Shown one piece after another: positions 2,822-12,434 of a DNA stretch of 14,107 bases (positions are counted from its first letter, which is position 1; every line of letters begins with the position of its first letter). The stretch spans positions 1 through 14,107 of the forward strand of contig JAGXSQ010000006.1 of the NCBI GenBank assembly GCA_018333395.1, in the 5' to 3' direction. This DNA is from Dethiobacter sp. GTDB lineage: Bacteria > Bacillota_D > Dethiobacteria > Dethiobacterales > Dethiobacteraceae. Below the pieces are notes generated by a model. The model saw nothing but the letters and a program-made list of their open reading frames with translations, was not told the DNA's origin and did not search any database. A program made the translations under genes and the position numbers.

Positions 2822-3622
2822 TTAGTCACCAAGCGCCAACGAGGTACGCCTCCGGCTGGCAAAAGCAGTTACACTTGTAAACCCGAGCGACTTGAGGAGG
2901 GAAACGGCCTTTTCAAGTCCTGCCCCCACATCTTTGGGGCAGTGGGCGTCAGACCCCAGAGTTACCGGTACCCCAAGCCTAAAACATTCACGCAGGAAAG
3001 CTTCGCTCGGATATGCTTCCTTTACCGGCGCCCGCCATCCCGCCGTGTTCAGTTCCACGCAGATACCGCTTTTGGCTAGCACGCCGCAAGTTTCCCGTAG
3101 CAAGTCATCCCAGTCTTGTTGCGGGAAAAAAGCGTATTTCTTGACTACATCCAAGTGGCCGACGATATCAAACAAGCCACTTTCTGCCATGTCCTGCAAA
3201 GTCTGAAAATATCTGCGGTACAGTTTGTCCACATCGAAAGTGCGGTAATACTCCACAAAGCGCGGGTGAGTAAAATCCCAGCCCTCCAAAAAGTGGATCG
3301 AACCGATACAGTAATCCAAAGGATAGCGGGCCAGCAGTTTTTCCGTCAGTGCTTCACGGCCCGGCAGGTAATCTACTTCCACGCCAAGGCGCACCGGCAC
3401 GGCGGAGCGTTCCCGAAGCTTCAGCACGTCGCTCAGATACACTGTCAACTCCCCGGCGCTCATGGTCACCGGGGTTTCCGGCGTAAAGTCCAGCAACTCC
3501 AGCGGAAAATGGTCGGCGAAGCCGATTTCCTGCAAGCCTTTTTGCGCGGCCTCGGCCATATACTCTTCCATACTCCCGGTAGCATGACAACAACGAACAG
3601 TGTGGACATGATAATCAATCAT
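2822..3622 (-). CDS. hisK: Histidinol-phosphatase, PHP family
   Basis: Hydrolyses L-histidinol phosphate to histidinol and phosphate, the penultimate step of histidine synthesis (HisJ/HisK type, unrelated to the HAD phosphatase of E. coli HisB). The 266 residues show all PHP metal motifs: DYHVHT (H5, H7), FADH (D37, H38), GVEVDYLPG (E82), GSIHF (H110), GHLD (H156), VELN (E190) and GSDAH (D225, H227). Length is normal. The ATG overlaps the hisIE stop as ATGA, with GGAGG 5 nt upstream, so it is translationally coupled. It is the last his gene of the operon. With it, the operon does not need a bifunctional HisB, which agrees with the short dehydratase-only hisB here. Some databases call the same family hisJ. 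Confidence 0.92.
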
Positions 3623-4227
3623 CGGTGCCTCCGCGCCAGCTCTGCCAGTACTTCCGAGAGGGCCACATCTTGCCGGGCCAACAGCACCAGCAGGTGGAAA
3701 AGCAAATCGCCAGTTTCGTACACCAGCTCGGCACGGTCTTCATTTTTGGCAGCGATAATGACTTCCCCCGCTTCCTCGGCCACTTTCTTCAGGATGCGGT
3801 CTACTCCCGCCTCCAGCAATTTGACTACGTACGAACCTTCCGGCCGCTCTACTTTACGCTGGCTGATAATCCGTTCCAGTTCCGCGAGAAAATGCTCTGC
3901 CGGCGGCGTGCCGACGGCCTGCAACGTCCTGAAAAAGCAGCCGGCAGCTCCCGTATGGCACGCCGCACCAGTTTGTTCCACCTGAACGAGCAACGCATCT
4001 CCGTCACAGTCATAGCTTATCCGCCGTACTTGTTGGAAATGGCCGGACGTTTCCCCCTTGTGCCAGAGTTCGTTGCGGCTGCGGCTATAAAACCAAGTCT
4101 CTCCGCTCTCCAGCGTCTTTTGCAGTGCTTCCCTATTCATATAAGCCAGCATCAGCACTTGCCCCGAATGCCAGTCCTGAACAATAGCCGGCACTAACCC
4201 GGCCTGGTCAAACTTTATTTCGTTCAT
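3619..4227 (-). CDS. hisI: Bifunctional phosphoribosyl-AMP cyclohydrolase / phosphoribosyl-ATP pyrophosphatase
   Basis: Fusion HisIE protein, 202 residues, catalysing steps 2 and 3 of histidine synthesis: PR-ATP to PR-AMP (HisE part), then opening of the adenine ring (HisI part). The cyclohydrolase domain is about 1-113 with [12 protein letters not shown] (54-65), the metal-binding DCDGD (73-77) and zinc cysteines C90 and C97 in CHTGAAGC. The pyrophosphohydrolase domain is about 114-202 with [14 protein letters not shown] (148-161) and [13 protein letters not shown] (171-183). Start and stop both lie in 4-bp ATGA overlaps, with hisF upstream and hisK downstream. The Shine-Dalgarno is weak, so translation probably depends on coupling from hisF. 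Confidence 0.95.
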
Positions 4228-4985
4228 CGCCGCACAGCCACCCCTCGTTCGGCCAGATATTTCTTCACCTCAGCCACAGCAAATTCCCGGTAGTGAAAAA
4301 CAGAAGCTGCAAGAGCCGCATCGGCTTTACCATGCGTGAGCACCTCGCAAAAGTGTTCCGGTTTTCCCGCCCCACCGGAGGCAATAACCGGGATGTTGAC
4401 CAGTTCCGCTACCGCCGCCGTCAGGCGCAGGTCGTAGCCATCTTTTGCGCCGTCAGCGTCCATGCTGGTTAGCAGAACTTCCCCGGCGCCGCGCCTGGCC
4501 CCTTCTGCCACCCAAGCCAGTGCCGACCTGCCGGTGGGCCGGCGGCCGCCGTGAGTGTAAACCTCCCAGTCGTCTAGGGCTGAATTCCACTTGGCATCAA
4601 CGGCCAGAACAACGCACTGCGACCCGAAACACCCAGCACAAGCGGTAAGCAATTCCGGGCTCTCCACCGCCGCCGTGTTTAAAGAAACCTTGTCGGCTCC
4701 GGCGGCCAGGATTTGGCGCACGTCTTCCAGGCTGCTGATACCGCCGCCGACAGCAAAAGGAATAAAAACCTGGGCGGCTGTGCGGCGAACCACCTCCAGC
4801 ATAGTGCCACGCCCTTCATGGGAAGCGGTAATATCCAGGAAGACCAGTTCGTCCGCCCCGGCTCCGTCATAATATTTGGCCTGTTCCACCGGGTCTCCCG
4901 CATCCCGCAGATTAATAAAGCGAGTACCTTTAACCACCCGCCCGTCCAGTACATCAAGGCAGGGGATAATCCGCTTAGCAAGCAC
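4224..4985 (-). CDS. hisF: Imidazole glycerol phosphate synthase, cyclase subunit
   Basis: Joins ammonia from HisH to PRFAR and releases IGP and AICAR; a beta/alpha barrel that works as a HisF-HisH complex. From the GTG at 4985 the protein is 253 residues, the usual length, and both catalytic aspartates fall at canonical numbers: D11 (PCLDV) and D130 (LAVDAK). Phosphate-binding loops VGGGIS (79-84) and IASGGAG near the C-terminus are present. An upstream in-frame start at 5024 would add 13 residues with no family match. The GTG has AGGAGG 8 nt ahead, so I reject the longer form. The start overlaps the hisA stop by 11 bp; the stop overlaps hisIE as ATGA. Confidence 0.95.
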
Positions 4986-5718
4986 TGTTCCGGCCTCCTG
5001 CGGCCAGGGACAACGCAGCGCCAAGCTCTAGGCGGTCGGTATAGAGTGCCTGACCGACTATTACGCCGGTTACGCCAAACTCTTCCAGCATCAGCAAATC
5101 GGCAATATCTTGCAACCGCGAAACGCCGCCGGAAGCGATTACTTTCACCGGCGCTGACTCGGCCAGCCGGCGGATAGCCACTAGGTTCGGGCCGGAAAGC
5201 GTCCCATCGCGGCGGATGTCGGTATAGATTACCTCACGCACCCCCATTTCCGCGACGCGGCAAGCAAGGCTTCCTGCCTCAACATCCGCTTCTTCCACCC
5301 AGCCACGGACAGCTACCTTCCCGTCTCGCGCATCAATACCGACCATAACCTGGCCCGGGAAACGATTACAGAGTTCTGCTACCACTTGCGGCTCCGTCAC
5401 TGCCACGGTGCCAAGAATCACCCGCTCCACACCGCGAGCCAGAAGGTCAGCCGCAGTGGCCGAGTCACGGATGCCGCCCCCTACTTGGACGGGAATATGC
5501 AAGGCCCGGACAATTTTTTCGATAACCGCGGCATTTTGCAATTTTCCGGCAAAAGCACCGTCCAAGTCCACCAAGTGCAAACGCTCGGCACCTTCAGTCT
5601 GCCAGCGCAGCGCCGCAGACAGGGGATCGTCATAATAAACAGTTTCTTTAGACAACTCTCCATGAATCAAGCGCACACAGCGGCCGGCACGCAGGTCGAC
5701 AGCAGGAATAATCAGCAT
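4975..5718 (-). CDS. hisA: ProFAR isomerase: 1-(5-phosphoribosyl)-5-[(5-phosphoribosylamino)methylideneamino]imidazole-4-carboxamide isomerase
   Basis: Amadori-type isomerase that converts ProFAR to PRFAR, the substrate of HisFH. A beta/alpha barrel of 247 residues, normal length, and homologous to HisF next door. The catalytic pair is visible: D8 in [15 protein letters not shown] and D129 in VGIDARDG. The phosphate-binding GGGIRD (80-85) and IASGGVS loops are intact. The ATG overlaps the hisH stop by 7 bp (ATGCTGA), with a run of six G 8 nt upstream. The 3' end overlaps the hisF GTG. Nothing suggests a PriA-type bifunctional enzyme, which would be expected in Actinobacteria. Confidence 0.95.
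4994..4999 (-). promoter_or_regulatory. Ribosome binding site that sets the hisF start
   Basis: AGGAGG on the minus strand, 8 nt before the GTG at 4985 and inside the 3' end of hisA. It supports the 253-residue HisF over an N-terminally extended one. Confidence 0.7.
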
Positions 5719-6320
5719 GACGCAAGCCCCCCAAAATTAGACAGGATTCTAATGCCCAGTCGGCTGCTTTTCTCCGGGTGGAACTGCAGGCCAAAAACGT
5801 GGCCCCGCCCGACGACTGCCGGGAACTCCACGCCGTAATTGGCCGTGGCCAAGACCGCTTCCCCGTCGCAGGAACCGACGTAATAAGAGTGGACAAAATA
5901 AACATAGTCACCACTCTTGATGCCCTCCAACAGTGGATGCGGACGACGGATAAGCAAATCGTTCCAGCCAACCTGCGGGACTTTCCGCCCGTTGCGAAAA
6001 AGCACTACTTTGCCTGGCAGCAGACCTAGTCCGGCGTGGTCGCCCATTTCTTCGCTGCCTTCAAAGAGCAGTTGCAGTCCTAGGCAAATACCGAGCAACG
6101 GCACGCCCTGGCGAACACGCTCCACCAACATCGACGCCAATCCAGTTCGGCGCAGGTTTTCCATGGCCTGGCCAAAAGCACCGACCCCGGGCAACACCAA
6201 ACCGGAAGCCCTCGCCAAATCACCCGGGTCGCTGCTGATAGGCGTGTCAAAGCCGGCGGCAACAAAGCCGTTCCGGACGCTCTGCAGGTTGCCCAGGCCA
6301 TAGTCGACAATCACAATCAC
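5712..6320 (-). CDS. hisH: Imidazole glycerol phosphate synthase, glutaminase subunit
   Basis: Class I glutamine amidotransferase that feeds ammonia to HisF. The 202 residues are the usual length. The catalytic triad is visible: C79 in GICLGLQLLFEGSEE, and H181 and E183 in QFHPEKS. The oxyanion-loop region PGVGAFG is at 44-50. The start codon is GTG, with GGGGGA 6 nt upstream; a second GTG two codons later is possible. The 7-bp overlap with hisA suggests coupling. Unlike its neighbours it is separated from the preceding gene (hisB) by 68 bp, and that gap carries a long T-rich run on the coding strand. Confidence 0.94.
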   Translation of the reverse strand: MIVIVDYGLGNLQSVRNGFVAAGFDTPISSDPGDLARASGLVLPGVGAFGQAMENLRRTGLASMLVERVRQGVPLLGICLGLQLLFEGSEEMGDHAGLGLLPGKVVLFRNGRKVPQVGWNDLLIRRPHPLLEGIKSGDYVYFVHSYYVGSCDGEAVLATANYGVEFPAVVGRGHVFGLQFHPEKSSRLGIRILSNFGGLASC

Positions 6321-6388: not shown

Positions 6389-6979
6389 CTACAAAACGCC
6401 TTTGGTGGAAGGCACCCCTGTCAGCCGCGGCTCACGGGAGGTAGCCTCGTCGAGAGCCCGTCCCAAACCTTTAAAGACAGCTTCGATGATATGGTGAGTA
6501 TTCTTGCCGGCCAACAGCCTGACATGCAGTGTCAGGCGTGCCTTGTTCACAAAAGCGCGCAGGAATTCCTCCACCAGTTCCGACTCAAAGTTGCCAAGAC
6601 GCGCGGCTGGCAGCGGTAGATCCAGGCCCAGATACGGACGCCCCGACAAGTCAACCGCTACCAACACCAGCGTTTCATCCATGGGTAAAAGGGAGGCACC
6701 GTAGCGCCTGATACCGGATCTATCACCCAGCGCCTCCCCGAAGGCCTCCCCTAAGACAAGCCCTAGGTCCTCCACCGTGTGATGAGCATCGACGGCCAAA
6801 TCGCCGCGAGCAGTGCTCTCCAGGTCAAAAAAGCCGTGCCTGGCAAACAGTTCCAGCATATGCTCCAGAAATGGGACGTCTAAGCCGAGCTCGGCCTGGC
6901 CGCTGCCGTCTAGGTTGAGCGTCACGCTGACCGTTGTTTCCGCCGTCTTACGCGTTATTGTCGCACTTCTGTTGTTCAA
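6389..6979 (-). CDS. hisB: Imidazoleglycerol-phosphate dehydratase
   Basis: Dehydrates IGP to imidazole acetol phosphate. At 196 residues it is the stand-alone dehydratase without the N-terminal HAD phosphatase found in enterobacteria. Manganese-binding motifs are present: DVPFLEHML with H40, DAHHTVED (64-71, H66, H67, E70) and THHIIEA (161-167, H162, H163, E166). The tail ends GVPSTKGVL, as is typical. The motif DVPFLEHM has Glu where many homologues have Asp. The start is TTG at 6979, chosen because AAGGAGGG sits 6 nt upstream; the gene overlaps the hisD end by 32 bp. In many Firmicutes hisC lies between hisD and hisB; here it is missing. Confidence 0.94.
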   Translation of the reverse strand: MNNRSATITRKTAETTVSVTLNLDGSGQAELGLDVPFLEHMLELFARHGFFDLESTARGDLAVDAHHTVEDLGLVLGEAFGEALGDRSGIRRYGASLLPMDETLVLVAVDLSGRPYLGLDLPLPAARLGNFESELVEEFLRAFVNKARLTLHVRLLAGKNTHHIIEAVFKGLGRALDEATSREPRLTGVPSTKGVL

Positions 6980-8252
6980 GATATTCCCTCCTTATCTTGA
7001 CCGCCTGCCCGTGTGCCGTGAGCCCTTCTACGGCCGCCAGGGTCTCCACAGCGCGGGCCGCTCCAAGCAGCGCTGCCGCAGGATAATGAATAATGCTGCT
7101 TCTTTTCTGGAAGTCTGCTGCCGAAAGAGGCGAGCAAAAGCGCGCTGAGCCCGCTGTAGGCAGAACATGGTTCGGACCGGCCCAATAGTCGCCGAGTGGT
7201 TCCGGCGTATAAGCGCCGACAAAAATAGCACCGGCATTTTCTATCTGCTCAAGAGCTTGCCAGGGGTCGGCCAAATGCAGCTCCAGGTGTTCGGGAGCCA
7301 GTGTATTAACAATATCCAGTGCTTCGCTCATGTCTTTTGCCAGTACCAGCGCCCCCTGCTCCGCCAGCGCCTTGGCCGCCACGCTGCAGCGCGCGAGCTT
7401 CACGCATTGCTTCTCCAGCTCACGCGGCAGTTCTGCCGCCAGCCGCCGCGAGGTAGTGACACAGTAAGCCGCCGCCAGTACATCGTGCTCCGCCTGGGAA
7501 AGCAAATCGGCCGCCACAAAGTCGCTGCGAGCCGTATCGTCGGCCAACACCAGCACCTCGCTTGGCCCGGCCAGCATGTCGATACCTACCATCCCGGCTA
7601 CTTCCCGCTTGGCCAGGGTAACGAACAAATTGCCAGGTCCGACAATCTTGTCTACAGACTGAATGCTTTCCGTTCCGTAAGCGAGGGCGGCAATAGCCTG
7701 AGCACCGCCGCATTTATAAACCTCATCAGCTCCGGCCAAACGCGCCGCCACCAGCGTATTCGCGTTTACCTCACCTCCGGCCTGCGGCGGCGTTACTACC
7801 ACTACTTTCCGCACCCCTGCCACTCGAGCCGGTATGACCGTCATCAATACTGAGGAAGGATACGCTGCGCCGCCGCCCGGCACGTAAGCCCCCACGCTGG
7901 CCAGCGCCGTGACGCGCTCACCAAGAACCACGCCATCCGCGCCCCGTTCCTGCCAAGATTGACGCAAACCGCGCCGATGAAAACCGGCAATGTTTTCTCC
8001 TGCCCGGCAGAGCAACTCCCGGACATCCCGGTCAACAAGCCGCTCCGCCCGTTCAAACTCTTCCTCACTGACACGCCACGTCTCCAGCACAGCACCGTCA
8101 AATTCCGCCGTATAAAACCGTAGCGCCTCGTCGCCTTTTAGCTGCACGGCCCGGATAATCTCCCGCACCGTGGCCAACGCCTCCGGGTAGTCGTCAAAAG
8201 TGCGGCGGCTAAAGCGTCGTTTAAAAAAACGGGCCTCCAGCACCTTCAACAC
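6948..8252 (-). CDS. hisD: Histidinol dehydrogenase
   Basis: Zinc enzyme that oxidises histidinol twice with NAD+ to give histidine, the last step. From the GTG at 8252 it has 434 residues, matching the family. Zinc ligands are Q253 and H256 (LLSQAEHD), D355 (PLGDYW) and H414 (LTAHGQ); the catalytic pair is E321-H322 (LAPEHLEL). The hallmark VGAYVPGGGAAYPSSVLM is at 120-137 and KIVGPGNLFV at 202-211. The frame is open 51 bp further upstream, but those residues (glycine/arginine rich) match nothing. AAGGGAG lies 9 nt before the GTG, and the GTG overlaps the hisG stop (GTGTTGA, 7 bp). The 3' end overlaps hisB. Confidence 0.95.
   Translation of the reverse strand: MLKVLEARFFKRRFSRRTFDDYPEALATVREIIRAVQLKGDEALRFYTAEFDGAVLETWRVSEEEFERAERLVDRDVRELLCRAGENIAGFHRRGLRQSWQERGADGVVLGERVTALASVGAYVPGGGAAYPSSVLMTVIPARVAGVRKVVVVTPPQAGGEVNANTLVAARLAGADEVYKCGGAQAIAALAYGTESIQSVDKIVGPGNLFVTLAKREVAGMVGIDMLAGPSEVLVLADDTARSDFVAADLLSQAEHDVLAAAYCVTTSRRLAAELPRELEKQCVKLARCSVAAKALAEQGALVLAKDMSEALDIVNTLAPEHLELHLADPWQALEQIENAGAIFVGAYTPEPLGDYWAGPNHVLPTAGSARFCSPLSAADFQKRSSIIHYPAAALLGAARAVETLAAVEGLTAHGQAVKIRREYLEQQKCDNNA
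6986..6993 (-). promoter_or_regulatory. Ribosome binding site that sets the TTG start of hisB
   Basis: AAGGAGGG on the minus strand, 6 nt before TTG at 6979 and inside hisD. A near-perfect anti-16S match compensates for the weak TTG codon. Confidence 0.75.
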
Positions 8253-8896
8253 TTTCTTTCGCTCCCTTCCCCCAGCGCCGCAGCCAGTTTGGCTACCAGC
8301 CACGCCACCCGTTCACCCTTAACCTGGTAGCTGCCTGGGTTAGCGACCAGGCGAGAGGTAATCTGGGTAATTGTCTCCACTTCCTCCAAGTTGTTTTCCC
8401 GCAGCGTTTTCCCGGTAGAAACCAGGTCTACAATCACGTCGGCCAAGTTCAAAAGCGGCGCCAACTCTATGGAACCGTGCAGCTTGATAACCTCTACCTG
8501 CCGGCCCTGACCCTGAAAGTAGCGCTCTGTAATCCGCGGGTACTTGGTAGCTACATAACCACCATGGAAATCGCCACTGCCAACTCTTTGCGCCACCGAC
8601 AGCCGACAGCAGCCAATATGCAAATCAAGCAGTTCATAAAGCTCCCGCTCCTGCTCCAGAAGCACATCTTTGCCGACAATACCAAGGTCTGCCACGCCGT
8701 ACTCCACATAAGTGGGGATATCAGCAGGTTTGGCCAGGATGAAGCACAGATTGTGCTCCTCCAAAGCAAAAGTAAGCTGGCGTGTCATTTCCCGCAGTTG
8801 GCCGCAGCCAAGGCCTGCTTTTTCCAAAAGATTAAGCGCTGGCGGCAACATACGCCCTTTGGCCAGTGCTACCGTTAACCACTCATTACCAGTCAC
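8246..8896 (-). CDS. hisG: ATP phosphoribosyltransferase, short (HisZ-dependent) form
   Basis: Catalyses the first, committed step: ATP + PRPP to phosphoribosyl-ATP. From GTG at 8896 it is 216 residues, typical of the short HisG that lacks the C-terminal histidine-binding domain and needs HisZ for activity and feedback control. Visible motifs are LTVALAKGRML (7-17), ADLGIVGKDVL (69-79), LHGSIELAPLLNLAD (139-153) and the PRPP loop DLVSTGKTLRENNL (157-170). The frame is open to TTG at 8920, but AAGGAG sits 8 nt before the GTG, and the longer form overlaps the small membrane gene. The start lies 13 nt after that gene's stop, with the RBS overlapping the stop codon, so coupling is likely. Confidence 0.94.
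   Translation of the reverse strand: MTGNEWLTVALAKGRMLPPALNLLEKAGLGCGQLREMTRQLTFALEEHNLCFILAKPADIPTYVEYGVADLGIVGKDVLLEQERELYELLDLHIGCCRLSVAQRVGSGDFHGGYVATKYPRITERYFQGQGRQVEVIKLHGSIELAPLLNLADVIVDLVSTGKTLRENNLEEVETITQITSRLVANPGSYQVKGERVAWLVAKLAAALGEGSERKC
8262..8268 (-). promoter_or_regulatory. Ribosome binding site that sets the GTG start of hisD
   Basis: AAGGGAG on the minus strand, 9 nt before GTG at 8252 and inside the end of hisG. It argues against the 17-residue longer HisD. Confidence 0.65.
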
Positions 8897-8904
8897 TGCT
8901 GCCA

Positions 8905-8910
8905 CTCCTT
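8905..8910 (-). promoter_or_regulatory. Ribosome binding site that sets the GTG start of hisG
   Basis: AAGGAG on the minus strand, 8 nt before GTG at 8896. It directly abuts the TGA stop of the small membrane protein gene (reads TGAAGGAG), a layout typical of translational coupling. Confidence 0.7.
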
Positions 8911-9143
8911 CATCCACCAAGCGTCGGCATCAAAAATAATGCTAAAAAAACCACTAAAACTAAGACAACACCCAATAAAACAACAACTATTTTTCCGGCC
9001 CGCCGGTATTCCTCCTCTTTGCCTGCTATATAGTAATAAACGGCAAGCACTGTGGCCACAAGAAAAACTACCCCTGCCAGCCACAGCATGAACATTAGTA
9101 CAACACTCAAAGCGCCACCCAAAGGCATCACTGACACTGACAT
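8910..9143 (-). CDS. Small two-helix membrane protein of unknown function inside the his operon
   Basis: I do not recognise this gene. From ATG at 9143 (GAGGG 7 nt upstream; an in-frame TTG lies at 9149) it encodes 77 residues. Two hydrophobic segments are evident: about 10-40 (ALSVVLMFMLWLAGVVFLVA continuing to VLAVYYYIA) and about 52-72 (a run of V, L and F), joined by a charged hinge GKEEEYRRAGK (41-51). The C-terminus is a short LMPTLGG. No signal peptidase site or catalytic motif is visible. It lies 69 bp after hisZ and 13 bp before hisG, with the hisG ribosome site overlapping its stop. It therefore sits between the two genes whose products form one ATP-PRT complex. The overlapping frame with a 93-residue reading has no such structure. 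It is probably a real gene; the role is unknown. Confidence 0.7.
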   Translation of the reverse strand: MSVSVMPLGGALSVVLMFMLWLAGVVFLVATVLAVYYYIAGKEEEYRRAGKIVVVLLGVVLVLVVFLALFLMPTLGG

Positions 9144-9212: not shown

Positions 9213-10394
9213 CTAACCATAATAATGTGTTACAGCCGCGCCCAGCCTCTTGCCTTCCCGCCCGGTCTCGGCTTTGTCGCGCGCCTTGACGTCCACTATC
9301 ACGGCGGCGCCTTGACGCCGCAACTCTTCTGCTCTGGCAAATGCAGTTGCGCGATTCGCTTCATCGTAACCCACAAAGACCAGTTCCTGGCCGTTGGGCA
9401 ATTTTTTCAGGCGCTGCAGAACTGTAAGCAAGTGGTCTGTGTTCAAAGCAAACCCCACCGCCGGCAGATCAGGGCCAAAATGTCCGAGCAGCCGGTCATA
9501 GCGGCCGCCGCCACAAAGAGGAAAGCCAAGTCCTGCCGTATAGCCCTCAAAGACCATGCCGGTATAGTAATCCATATCACGGACCAACCCCAGGTCCAGT
9601 GAAACGAAGCGAGTCATCCCGTAATCATCTAGTATCTGGCATACTTCCCTCAGCGCGGCCAGGGCGCTCTCGCCCCGTTCGCCCGGCAAAAGCCTCTCCG
9701 CCTCGCGCAGCACCTCCTGCCCGCCGCGCAGTGCCGGCACCCGCAGCAGACACTCTTTGGAAAACGCCGGCAGGGGCAAAGCATGCACCATTTCCTGCAA
9801 AGAAACGAAGTCTTTGCTGTTTAGGTAGTGTTTCGCCTGCTCGCCCGCCCTTCCTTCTATCCCGTGAGCGTTAAGCAGCGCCTGCAAAAAACCGACATGC
9901 CCAAGGCAGATGGTAAACTGCTCCATCCCTAGTTCACGCAGCACAGTAACAGCCAGCGCTACCGTTTCAGCATCACTGCCGGCGCAGTTTGCGCCAATCA
10001 GCTCCACGCCAGCTTGGGCCACCTCTCGCTGCCGCCCCTGCCGGCCGGAAGTGTAGCGGTAAATGCTGCCGCTGTAGCATAAGCGCAGTGGCTTGGGCTC
10101 TCCGGCCAGGTGCGTCGCGGCCAGCCGGGCGAGCGGAACTGTAAAATCGGGGCGAAGCACTAACGTCCGCCCCCGCTCATCCGGAAAACGGTACATCTGT
10201 TCTTCTAGGCTATCGGCCGAACCGGCTGTAAAACTGGCACTGTACTCAAAGGCTGGTGTGACTACCTCTCGATAGCCAAAGCGCAGAAAAATTTCCTGCA
10301 TCAGGTTCTCCACGGTCCGCTTCGACCCGGCCAAAGCAGGCAATAAATCGTGTACCCCTTCCGGAGTCAGCAACCGCCGAAGCTTTTCATTCAT
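9213..10394 (-). CDS. hisZ: ATP phosphoribosyltransferase regulatory subunit
   Basis: Class II histidyl-tRNA-synthetase paralogue that activates short HisG and carries the histidine feedback site; no tRNA charging. The 393 residues fit HisZ (HisRS is usually about 420 or more). Visible are TPEGVHDLLP (10-19), TPAFEY (46-51), LRPDFTVPLARLAA (80-93, where HisRS has LRPEGT.P), QAGVELIG (127-134), LGLVRDMDYYTGMVFEGYT (268-286), GGGRYDRLLG (295-304) and AVGFALN (312-318). A short C-terminal domain (about 336-393) remains. It is the first gene of the his operon: ATG with GGAG 7 nt upstream, preceded by the promoter and operator array. Being first fits co-production with hisG. Confidence 0.93.
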   Translation of the reverse strand: MNEKLRRLLTPEGVHDLLPALAGSKRTVENLMQEIFLRFGYREVVTPAFEYSASFTAGSADSLEEQMYRFPDERGRTLVLRPDFTVPLARLAATHLAGEPKPLRLCYSGSIYRYTSGRQGRQREVAQAGVELIGANCAGSDAETVALAVTVLRELGMEQFTICLGHVGFLQALLNAHGIEGRAGEQAKHYLNSKDFVSLQEMVHALPLPAFSKECLLRVPALRGGQEVLREAERLLPGERGESALAALREVCQILDDYGMTRFVSLDLGLVRDMDYYTGMVFEGYTAGLGFPLCGGGRYDRLLGHFGPDLPAVGFALNTDHLLTVLQRLKKLPNGQELVFVGYDEANRATAFARAEELRRQGAAVIVDVKARDKAETGREGKRLGAAVTHYYG

Positions 10395-10413: not shown

Positions 10414-10453
10414 TTAATGCTTTAACTAGTTAAAGCATTAACGTGTTAACGCA
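10414..10453 (-). promoter_or_regulatory. His operator: five TTAA tetramers at exact 8-bp period, with a perfect 28-bp palindrome (10414-10441)
   Basis: TTAA begins at 10414, 10422, 10430, 10438 and 10446, with spacers TGCT, CTAG, AGCA, CGTG and CGCA; a TCAA follows in phase at 10454. Positions 10414-10441 form a perfect palindrome centred on CTAG, and 10435-10452 form a second 18-bp palindrome with one mismatched pair, centred 16 bp away. The array starts right after the -10 box and covers the likely transcription start, so a bound protein would block initiation. In E. coli, TrpR dimers bind side by side 8 bp apart on sites built from CTAG and TTAA. I infer a TrpR-family regulator (YerC/HisR type), which in Firmicutes has been linked to histidine genes. 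An RNA hairpin role is the alternative. Confidence 0.75.
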
Positions 10454-10457
10454 TCAA

Positions 10458-10486
10458 ATTTTAACATGGCCCGCACTACTTGTCAA
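10458..10486 (-). promoter_or_regulatory. Promoter of the his operon
   Basis: Minus strand: -35 TTGACA (10486-10481), 17-bp spacer, -10 TAAAAT (10463-10458). This is a near-consensus housekeeping promoter. The start should be near 10451, giving a leader of about 55 nt before the hisZ ATG, too short for a T-box or long attenuator. The operator array begins at the next bases downstream. Confidence 0.8.
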
Positions 10487-10566: not shown

Positions 10567-11682
10567 TCACAGTAAAGCCTCGTAAAGCTGCTCGTACCGG
10601 GGCACAATAATCTGACTGTCAAAGAGCTTCTCGGCCCGATACCGAGCAGCATCCCCCATGCGCCGCAGAAGCTTTTCATTGCCCAGTAATTCCAGAGCAT
10701 AGCCTGCCAGCGCCTCCACGTCGCCCACCGGCGCCAGGTAGCCTGTTTCACCGTGCCTGACCACCTCCGGCAACCCCCCAGTATGTGTAGCAATAACAGG
10801 AACCTGGCACGCCATAGCCTCCAGGGCGCCAAGGCCAAAGCTCTCCTTCTCCGAGGGCAACAAAAAAAGGTCCGCTGCCGAAAAAAGTGGCAGGACGTTG
10901 TCCTGCAGTCCAAGGAACTGCACATCCTGTCCGATCTGCAGTCGATCCACCAGCCTTTGTGCCTCCGGTCGCTGCGGCCCATCGCCTACCAGCAACAGCT
11001 TGGCCTCCATTTTCCGGCGCACCCGCGCGAAAACCTCTATAACATCGGGAGATCTTTTTACGGGCCGGAAATTGGAAACGTGCAGCAAAACCTTACATTC
11101 CGTCTGCCAGCGGCAGACACGCTCCCGGGCCCCAGGTTGGCGGAAAAAGCGGCGCGTATTGATAAAATTATAGATAGTTTGCACCTTTTTGTCCGTACCA
11201 AAAGTTTCACCTGTCTCCAACGCGAGGCTCTCTGACACGGCGGTCACGCCGTCGCTCTGCTCCATGCTGAACTTGGTAATACGCTTAAAAGACGGGTCGC
11301 TGCCCACCAGGGTAATATCGGTGCCGTGCAGCGTGGTAACAACGCGGACGTGGCGATCGCCCACGATTTCCCGGGCCACATGAGCACAGAAAGAATGCGG
11401 AATAGCGTAATGGGCGTGAATGATGTCCAACTTTTCCCGTTCCAGCAGTTCCACCAGCTGGTTGATGAGCGCCAGCGTGTAGGGCGGATACTTAAACAGC
11501 GGATAAGACGGCATGTCTACCTCGTGATAGTAAACATTGGACTGGAAGCGGTCGAGGCGCAGGGGCATCTGGTAAGAGACGAAATGGACAATATGGCCGC
11601 GCTCCGCCAGCTCCTTACCGAGCTCAGTGGCCACCACCCCGCTGCCGCCATGAGTTGGATAGCAGACCATGGCGATTTTCAC
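10567..11682 (-). CDS. bshA: N-acetyl-alpha-D-glucosaminyl L-malate synthase (bacillithiol synthesis, glycosyltransferase family 4)
   Basis: Transfers GlcNAc from UDP-GlcNAc to L-malate, the first step of bacillithiol synthesis. GT-B fold retaining glycosyltransferase, 371 residues, normal for BshA. Landmarks are the N-terminal glycine loop PTHGGSGVVATELGKELA (9-26), DIIHAHYAIPH (86-96), LHGTD (118-122), KFSMEQSDGVTAVSESL (137-153), NFRPVKR (204-210) and the EX7E nucleotide-sugar motif E280-E288 in KESFGLGALEAMA. The malate-pocket region around LHGTDITLVG matches BshA rather than general GT4 enzymes. The ATG overlaps the bshB1 stop by 4 bp, so the two are coupled. A related GT4 with another acceptor cannot be ruled out by eye, but the bshB1 neighbour makes BshA strongly favoured. 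Confidence 0.9.
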   Translation of the reverse strand: MKIAMVCYPTHGGSGVVATELGKELAERGHIVHFVSYQMPLRLDRFQSNVYYHEVDMPSYPLFKYPPYTLALINQLVELLEREKLDIIHAHYAIPHSFCAHVAREIVGDRHVRVVTTLHGTDITLVGSDPSFKRITKFSMEQSDGVTAVSESLALETGETFGTDKKVQTIYNFINTRRFFRQPGARERVCRWQTECKVLLHVSNFRPVKRSPDVIEVFARVRRKMEAKLLLVGDGPQRPEAQRLVDRLQIGQDVQFLGLQDNVLPLFSAADLFLLPSEKESFGLGALEAMACQVPVIATHTGGLPEVVRHGETGYLAPVGDVEALAGYALELLGNEKLLRRMGDAARYRAEKLFDSQIIVPRYEQLYEALL

Positions 11683-12434
11683 GCTTTACCCTCCCTAACG
11701 GCTTTCCACGCCGGTCCATCCTGCGACAAACCTCTAAGGGAGGTCAGGTCTTCCACAACCAACTTTTGTTCCAGGTACAGCCCCTCACCGTACCAGGCCT
11801 GCACCATTGAACCCACATACTGGTCGCGCGCTTGGATCATGCGGATAAACCGCGGGTCATTGACCAGTGTCTTCCAGTCGGCATCGCGGGGCAGACCAAA
11901 TTGGCTCTGGTGAGCGCACAAAGCCGCGAGCTTACGCTCGTAAAAATCACTGACATCCACCACAAACGTGGGCTCTTCAAAAATGGCCAGAAAATACTGA
12001 CAGACGAGCGGCGGTCGGTAAGGTTCCCCATCGGCCGGGTAGCGCCGCAGACCGGACAGGTGGGCCGCCTCGCGCACCAGTTGGCTAGCGCGCAGGTGGT
12101 CTGGATGCTTGTCCTTCCAGTACGGTCCGAGGATAACAAGCGGCCTGTATTTGCGGATAACCTCTATGACGGCGCGCAGGCTCTCTTCATCCACCCGCAA
12201 GCGTGCGTCCGGCAGCCCTAGGTTATCGCGCACTACCATCCCCATAATTTCTGCCGCGTGCAACGCCTCTTGCCGGCGAATCTCCGGCGTGCCGTTGCTG
12301 CCCATTTCTCCCCTGGTCAGGTCAACTATACCACACCTAAGTCCCAGAGAGGCATGCTTAATCAGTGTTCCGCCGATGCCAATTTCCACGTCGTCGGGAT
12401 GAGAGCCAAAAGCCAAAATGTCCAGTCGCATCAT
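11679..12434 (-). CDS. bshB1: Bacillithiol biosynthesis deacetylase, LmbE/PIG-L family
   Basis: Zinc-dependent deacetylase that turns GlcNAc-malate into GlcN-malate, step two of bacillithiol synthesis. The 251 residues show the LmbE motif ILAFGSHPDDVEIGIGG (6-22; H12, D14, D15) and the second zinc motif KDKHPDH (107-113; H110, H113), the positions known from Bacillus BshB. Ser replaces the usual Ala just before the first His, a mild change. Other family blocks are TRGEMGSNGTPEIRRQEA (40-57) and NLGLPDARL (71-79). The N-terminus has two Met in a row; AAGGAAGG lies about 6 nt ahead. It starts 12 bp after the glycosyltransferase gene and ends in a 4-bp overlap with bshA. Activity on a bacillithiol S-conjugate, as in Bca-type members, is a possible side role. 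Confidence 0.88.
   Translation of the reverse strand: MMRLDILAFGSHPDDVEIGIGGTLIKHASLGLRCGIVDLTRGEMGSNGTPEIRRQEALHAAEIMGMVVRDNLGLPDARLRVDEESLRAVIEVIRKYRPLVILGPYWKDKHPDHLRASQLVREAAHLSGLRRYPADGEPYRPPLVCQYFLAIFEEPTFVVDVSDFYERKLAALCAHQSQFGLPRDADWKTLVNDPRFIRMIQARDQYVGSMVQAWYGEGLYLEQKLVVEDLTSLRGLSQDGPAWKAVREGKA

Follow-up and report, generated by a model that had tools for sequence, protein, structure and literature searches.

We report a multi-unit array of TTAA-like tetramers, set at an exact 8-bp period, at the promoter of a histidine biosynthesis operon in the 14,107-base stretch of DNA analysed here (hereafter the window; 55.7% G+C). Judged from sequence, the array (10414..10457, minus strand) probably serves as an operator for HisR (YerC), whose histidine-bound dimers would shut off the whole operon from hisZ to the phosphatase gene, a reading to which we assign a probability of roughly 85%. 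Several dimers loaded side by side in the 8-bp register would, in our best reading, account for the layout.

The operon lies on the minus strand and begins with hisZ (9213..10394, TIGR00443), followed by hisG (8246..8920, PF01634), hisD (6948..8303, PF00815) and the imidazoleglycerol-phosphate dehydratase gene hisB (6389..6979, PF00475). Further downstream are a class-I glutamine amidotransferase gene, named hisH from its place in the operon (5712..6320, PF00117), hisA (4975..5718) and hisF (4224..5024), both PF00977 and assigned to A or F by eye from gene order, hisIE (3619..4227, NF002747) and a PHP-type histidinol-phosphatase gene (hisJ/hisK; 2822..3622, NF005596). No hisC was seen among the his genes of the operon. 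The relatives of the window's HisZ point to Dethiobacter-like bacteria, with proteins of Dethiobacter sp. (65%) and D. alkaliphilus (63%) among the named matches. Directly upstream of the operon, on the same strand, lie the bacillithiol genes bshA and bshB1 (10567-12434), and the 439-aa open reading frame at 12447-13766 matches nothing in NCBIfam (E 1e-3) or in Pfam (E 1e-5). Searching plasmids with the his promoter region likewise gave no match.

A consensus scan of the minus strand places the his promoter immediately upstream of the array. It carries 11 of 12 consensus letters, with the -35 hexamer TTGACA (10481..10486) and the -10 hexamer TAAAAT (10458..10463) separated by a 17-bp spacer, and from this match transcription is predicted to start near 10451. 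The first base of the array directly adjoins the -10 box, and its other end lies 19 nt from the start of hisZ, within the range of about 13-25 nt seen in relatives. On the plus strand, TTAA stands at 10414, 10422, 10430, 10438 and 10446, and TCAA at 10454; read along the minus strand from 10457 down to 10414, this is one TTGA followed by five TTAA. The period of exactly 8 bp across all six units matches the half-site register of a tandem TrpR-type operator. Four of the six units form a perfect 28-bp palindrome by reverse-complement comparison (10414..10441), and an 18-bp element (10435-10452), centred 16 bp from the centre of the palindrome, is an imperfect palindrome. The first-pass annotation had described these features of the array (five TTAA with an in-phase TCAA at 8-bp steps, the 28-bp palindrome, an 18-bp near-palindrome 16 bp away, and an array starting right after a near-consensus -10 box), and each was located where expected, although in the 18-bp element just 14 of the 18 letters agree with the reverse complement.

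Chance does not explain the array. The pattern TTAA-N4-TTAA-N4-TTAA has three overlapping matches in the window, as against none in 200 dinucleotide shuffles. When the 200-nt upstream region was shuffled 20,000 times with dinucleotides preserved, the longest in-phase run was five units (two shuffles), compared with the six observed; for the 75-nt core, shuffled as many times, it was four (eight shuffles).

In Firmicutes, his genes are described as targets of the TrpR-family repressor HisR/YerC, with the motif cacTTTAnnnnnnTAAAgtg, whose cac/gtg flanks are printed in lower case and weakly conserved (Ashniev et al. 2022, PMC9413887). The core of this motif, TTTA-N6-TAAA, occurs with 8/8 letters at one place in the window, the 20-bp palindrome TGCTTTAACTAGTTAAAGCA (10418..10437), which lies inside the array, and the remaining four adjacent pairs of units score 6/8. 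The cac/gtg flanks agree only partly, at 2/6 letters here and at 1-5/6 in relatives. One could see in the window an ordinary single HisR site, with one dimer on 10418-10437 and the other boxes as turnover remnants or functionless weak neighbours. This would fit the published model of one 20-bp palindrome and the test of R. gnavus HisR, which used one 20-bp site and saw binding to it only with histidine present (both PMC9413887); it would also fit the full core being confined to one register in the window and, in 15/19 relatives, to the downstream pair alone.

The comparison of hisZ upstream regions within the class, however, points beyond a single site. We surveyed 97 genomes of the class to which the window and genome G117 belong, found a close HisZ (52-73% identity) in 18 of them, and compared the sequences upstream of hisZ in these genomes and in contig L001, each represented by its best place in 120 nt. 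All 19 promoters contain a best four-unit match scoring 13-16 of 16, for which TTTAataCgTTAacaCtTTAAcGtATTAAAG is the majority sequence. In 16/19, four units in a row have no more than one mismatch apiece and at least two perfect units are present; L132 has three units of this kind in place of four, and L143 and L146 fall short of two perfect units. Column conservation across the 19 relatives is high in all four units, including those outside the best pair, and two samples of distant genomes, described below, show enrichment at the 8-bp offsets on either side of the core. Outer units that stay in phase argue against remnants, because a remnant would lose phase. We regard a lone functional site as unlikely, if not negligibly so, and favour the multi-unit HisR operator.

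The alignment of relatives also bears on where the array sits and how long it is. The 8-bp phase is kept at the same place in the promoter, and the array starts at most two bases from a -10-like box in 16/19 relatives (by eye). A search of the 18 genomes for four-unit arrays with at most one mismatch returned the hisZ promoter in 13 of them and nine other places across all 18, while a reversed control pattern turned up at one place in each of three genomes. The length of the array, singled out earlier as its unusual part, is exceptional only in degree: no other run seen reaches the six units of the window, but the next longest is just one unit shorter, four are typical of the class, and other Bacillota have runs of 4-5. 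Insertion of two extra 8-bp units would yield the six-unit array of the window.

Of the nine places away from hisZ, one lies upstream of trpE in G117, and G117 and G247 each have one upstream of a glutamate dehydrogenase-like gene (both genes named by eye). In these two related genomes, the latter gene is preceded, at a distance of about 30 nt, by a five-unit TTAA-like array of 8-bp period (L205 2029-2064 in G117; L206 2048-2083 in G247). A survey of trpE across the 18 genomes, 12 of which gave a match for a total of 20 loci, found an array only in G117, at 15/16; the other 19 loci score 11 or less, and G247, a close relative of G117, has no array at trpE. Since the array is present at only one of 20 trpE-like loci, trpE is not a conserved target. 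The G117 locus itself (L207, G117:C163; 174-210 and 206-452) comprises a trpE-like gene (by eye) with a TTGACA/TAAAAT-like promoter, an adjoining five-unit 8-bp array and then a T-box leader, possibly a repressor site and a T-box acting in series. In a separate pattern search, with units spaced one N wider and hits close to control level, the palindrome CACTTTACAAATGTAAAG recurs among the matches listed, several times in G253 and one time in both G250 and G251; we take it to be perhaps the site of another regulator, BlaI/CopY-like.

The palindrome could alternatively work at the level of RNA, as a hairpin or attenuator in the leader of the his transcript. The predicted leader of the window does fold into a 12-bp-class hairpin (-13.3 kcal/mol, z -2.55), but in the five of the 19 relatives whose leaders were folded, none has excess structure (z -0.52 to 0.28). 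Moreover, the conserved left end of the array precedes the predicted transcription start, a T-run terminator was not found, and Rfam gives no match in the window or at 20 hisZ loci of the class, some of which have short upstream flanks (e.g., 119 nt at L142). With no excess structure in the five relatives folded and no Rfam match, we rejected a hairpin or attenuator as highly improbable. T-box leaders, which in Firmicutes are the other widespread means of controlling his genes (PMC9413887), are an RNA mechanism unlike that proposed for the window, and the T-box family RF00230 has no Rfam match in the window and none at the 20 class loci. The suggestion in the first-pass annotation that the array replaces a T-box common in related bacteria is accordingly unsupported; because no Rfam match exists at these 20 loci, HisR control looks ancestral in the class. 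At gathering score, a T-box was found at 1 of 16 HisR-negative hisZ loci (L247, G046).

The distribution of the putative regulator largely agrees with that of the array. A TrpR-family gene scores above the Pfam cut-off in 17/18 class genomes with a close HisZ, which, together with the conserved phase, supports, as far as sequence can, the earlier proposal that the operator at the his promoter belongs to a TrpR-family protein (YerC/HisR). In G246, the closest genome, HisR scores above the cut-off of the YerC model (141 bits vs 42.2) and below that of the TrpR model (25.9 vs 67.25); the solved structures that it matches by sequence are 3G1C, 3FRW and 3KOR. Most hisR upstream regions, scanned with approximate start calls, lack a site. 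The sole HisR-negative genome of the 18, G255, is likewise negative for TIGR02531. Three further class genomes with a more distant HisZ (G211, G032 and G236) have no HisR above the cut-off; an array is absent in G211, and none is found in the 104-nt region of G032. Despite the missing HisR, G236 has a five-unit array and G255 a four-unit array, so either these two genomes speak against a strict link between array and HisR, or their assemblies are incomplete.

G246 also encodes, at L212 556-1152 (G246:C63), a 198-aa single chain with two TrpR/YerC-like domains. A different TrpR-family protein, such as this one, might read the array in place of HisR, as its presence in the closest genome and the arrays of G236 and G255 would allow. 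A second TrpR-family protein above the cut-off is found, however, in 1 genome of 97, as against an array in 18/18 close relatives, and we consider such a reader very unlikely; HisR itself remains our candidate.

To place the phase in a wider context, we turned to other Bacillota and drew on 149 genomes of the phylum that includes G012; apart from the 18, they gave 88 his promoters. These are 88 of 89 regions (L266, taken from the wrong side of the gene, was left out; G133, G117 and weaker places were likewise excluded), 72 with HisR above the Pfam cut-off and 16 without, the weak sub-cut-off matches of G032, G061 and G103 being counted as negative. Near-duplicate genomes, e.g., G026/G072 and G106/G140, were retained, and the helix-turn-helix motif served to estimate the start of hisR wherever this gene comes before hisZ. 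Scores of at least 13/16 at period 8 were reached by 20/72 HisR-bearing promoters, compared with 0-2 at periods 5-7 and 9-14. The promoters without HisR gave 0/16 at period 8, a weak control in that the set is small and scores lower at every period. A good HisR core is present in 32/72 promoters with HisR and 0/16 without. When positions were anchored on the core, the offsets -8, +16 and -16 were the three most TTAA-like outside it (z 4.5, 3.4 and 3.4); here and below, z values compare offsets within one sample and, related genomes being non-independent, serve as guides and not as probabilities.

Because the anchored-offset test had been designed after the arrays were seen, it was repeated on 79 unused genomes. 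This held-out sample comprises 79 promoters, two of their regions cut by contig ends, taken without regard to HisR status, with a 1500-nt flank assumed for 11 loci. The core criterion was passed by 25/79, and offsets -8 and +16 again ranked as the top two (z 4.3 and 3.1), followed by +17, -9 and -13; offset -16 was weak (z 1.8). At least 13/16 was scored by 15/79 promoters at period 8, as against 0-3 at other periods, and at least 14/16 by eight, as against none. A five-unit run occurs in 6/79, several of these directly after a TATATT-like box. Scores stayed below 13/16 in 52/72 HisR-bearing and 64/79 held-out promoters, and no good core was found in the chosen region in 40/72 and 54/79, respectively, some regions having perhaps been wrongly chosen. 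Long arrays are therefore not universal, as most sampled promoters show no such array or core.

Among known systems, E. coli TrpR offers a parallel in layout. With tryptophan as co-repressor, it binds in tandem in 8-bp steps, and tandem binding of TrpR was reportedly the subject of work by Lawson and Carey in 1993. TrpR-fold dimers, self-complementary tetramer half-sites and the 8-bp step are common to both systems; the E. coli operators differ in their effector, in a CTAG-type half-site and in shorter arrays. With the published HisR operators (PMC9413887 and, for Clostridium acetobutylicum, PMC3828012), the window shares the operon, the TTTA-N6-TAAA core and the regulator family found in its relatives, but those operators are given as one 20-bp palindrome, whereas the window and its relatives have 4-6 half-sites in an 8-bp ladder at the -10 edge. 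For Clostridia, PMC3828012 gives a conserved motif resembling that of HisR ahead of hisZ, with no phase described in the consulted part, and that of PMC9413887 holds no statement on phased HisR sites. The operator is of a known kind, and its phased, multi-unit layout seems undescribed within the papers searched, although it may be visible in print in sequence logos, supplements, RegPrecise or subscription papers.

We envision the following sequence of events at the his promoter. Each TTAA-like tetramer would act as a half-site, two neighbours 8 bp apart making up one dimer site, and, as TTAA is self-complementary, one tetramer could serve two adjacent dimers. Four units could thereby hold two or three dimers, and six could hold three to five. 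When histidine is plentiful, histidine-bound HisR dimers would settle on the array, probably more than one next to another at 8-bp intervals, as TrpR does on tandem operators. Because the array starts at the -10 edge and covers the predicted start, bound HisR would bar RNA polymerase and the operon would be off; when histidine is low, HisR would depart and the operon would be expressed. Within this scheme, we infer the presence of HisR in the window's organism, the binding of more than one dimer, the sharing of half-sites and any effect of array length.

More tentatively, and with rather less than even confidence, which the lack of a clear array in most sampled promoters has lowered, we suggest that in much of the Bacillota HisR may act not as a lone dimer but as a short chain of dimers on an 8-bp TTAA ladder over the start site, the number of rungs, added in 8-bp steps (four in most of the class, six in the window), setting the steepness of the histidine shut-off. 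To our knowledge, the effector and DNA contacts of the histidine-sensing branch of the TrpR family are still unsolved. If our reading is true, the known HisR motif would be one register of a longer phased operator, and current site models would miss part of the platform. In that case his operons, with 3, 4, 5 and 6 units, would form a series provided by nature for testing how operator length tunes a repressor, and tandem binding would be extended from TrpR to the histidine-sensing branch of its family.
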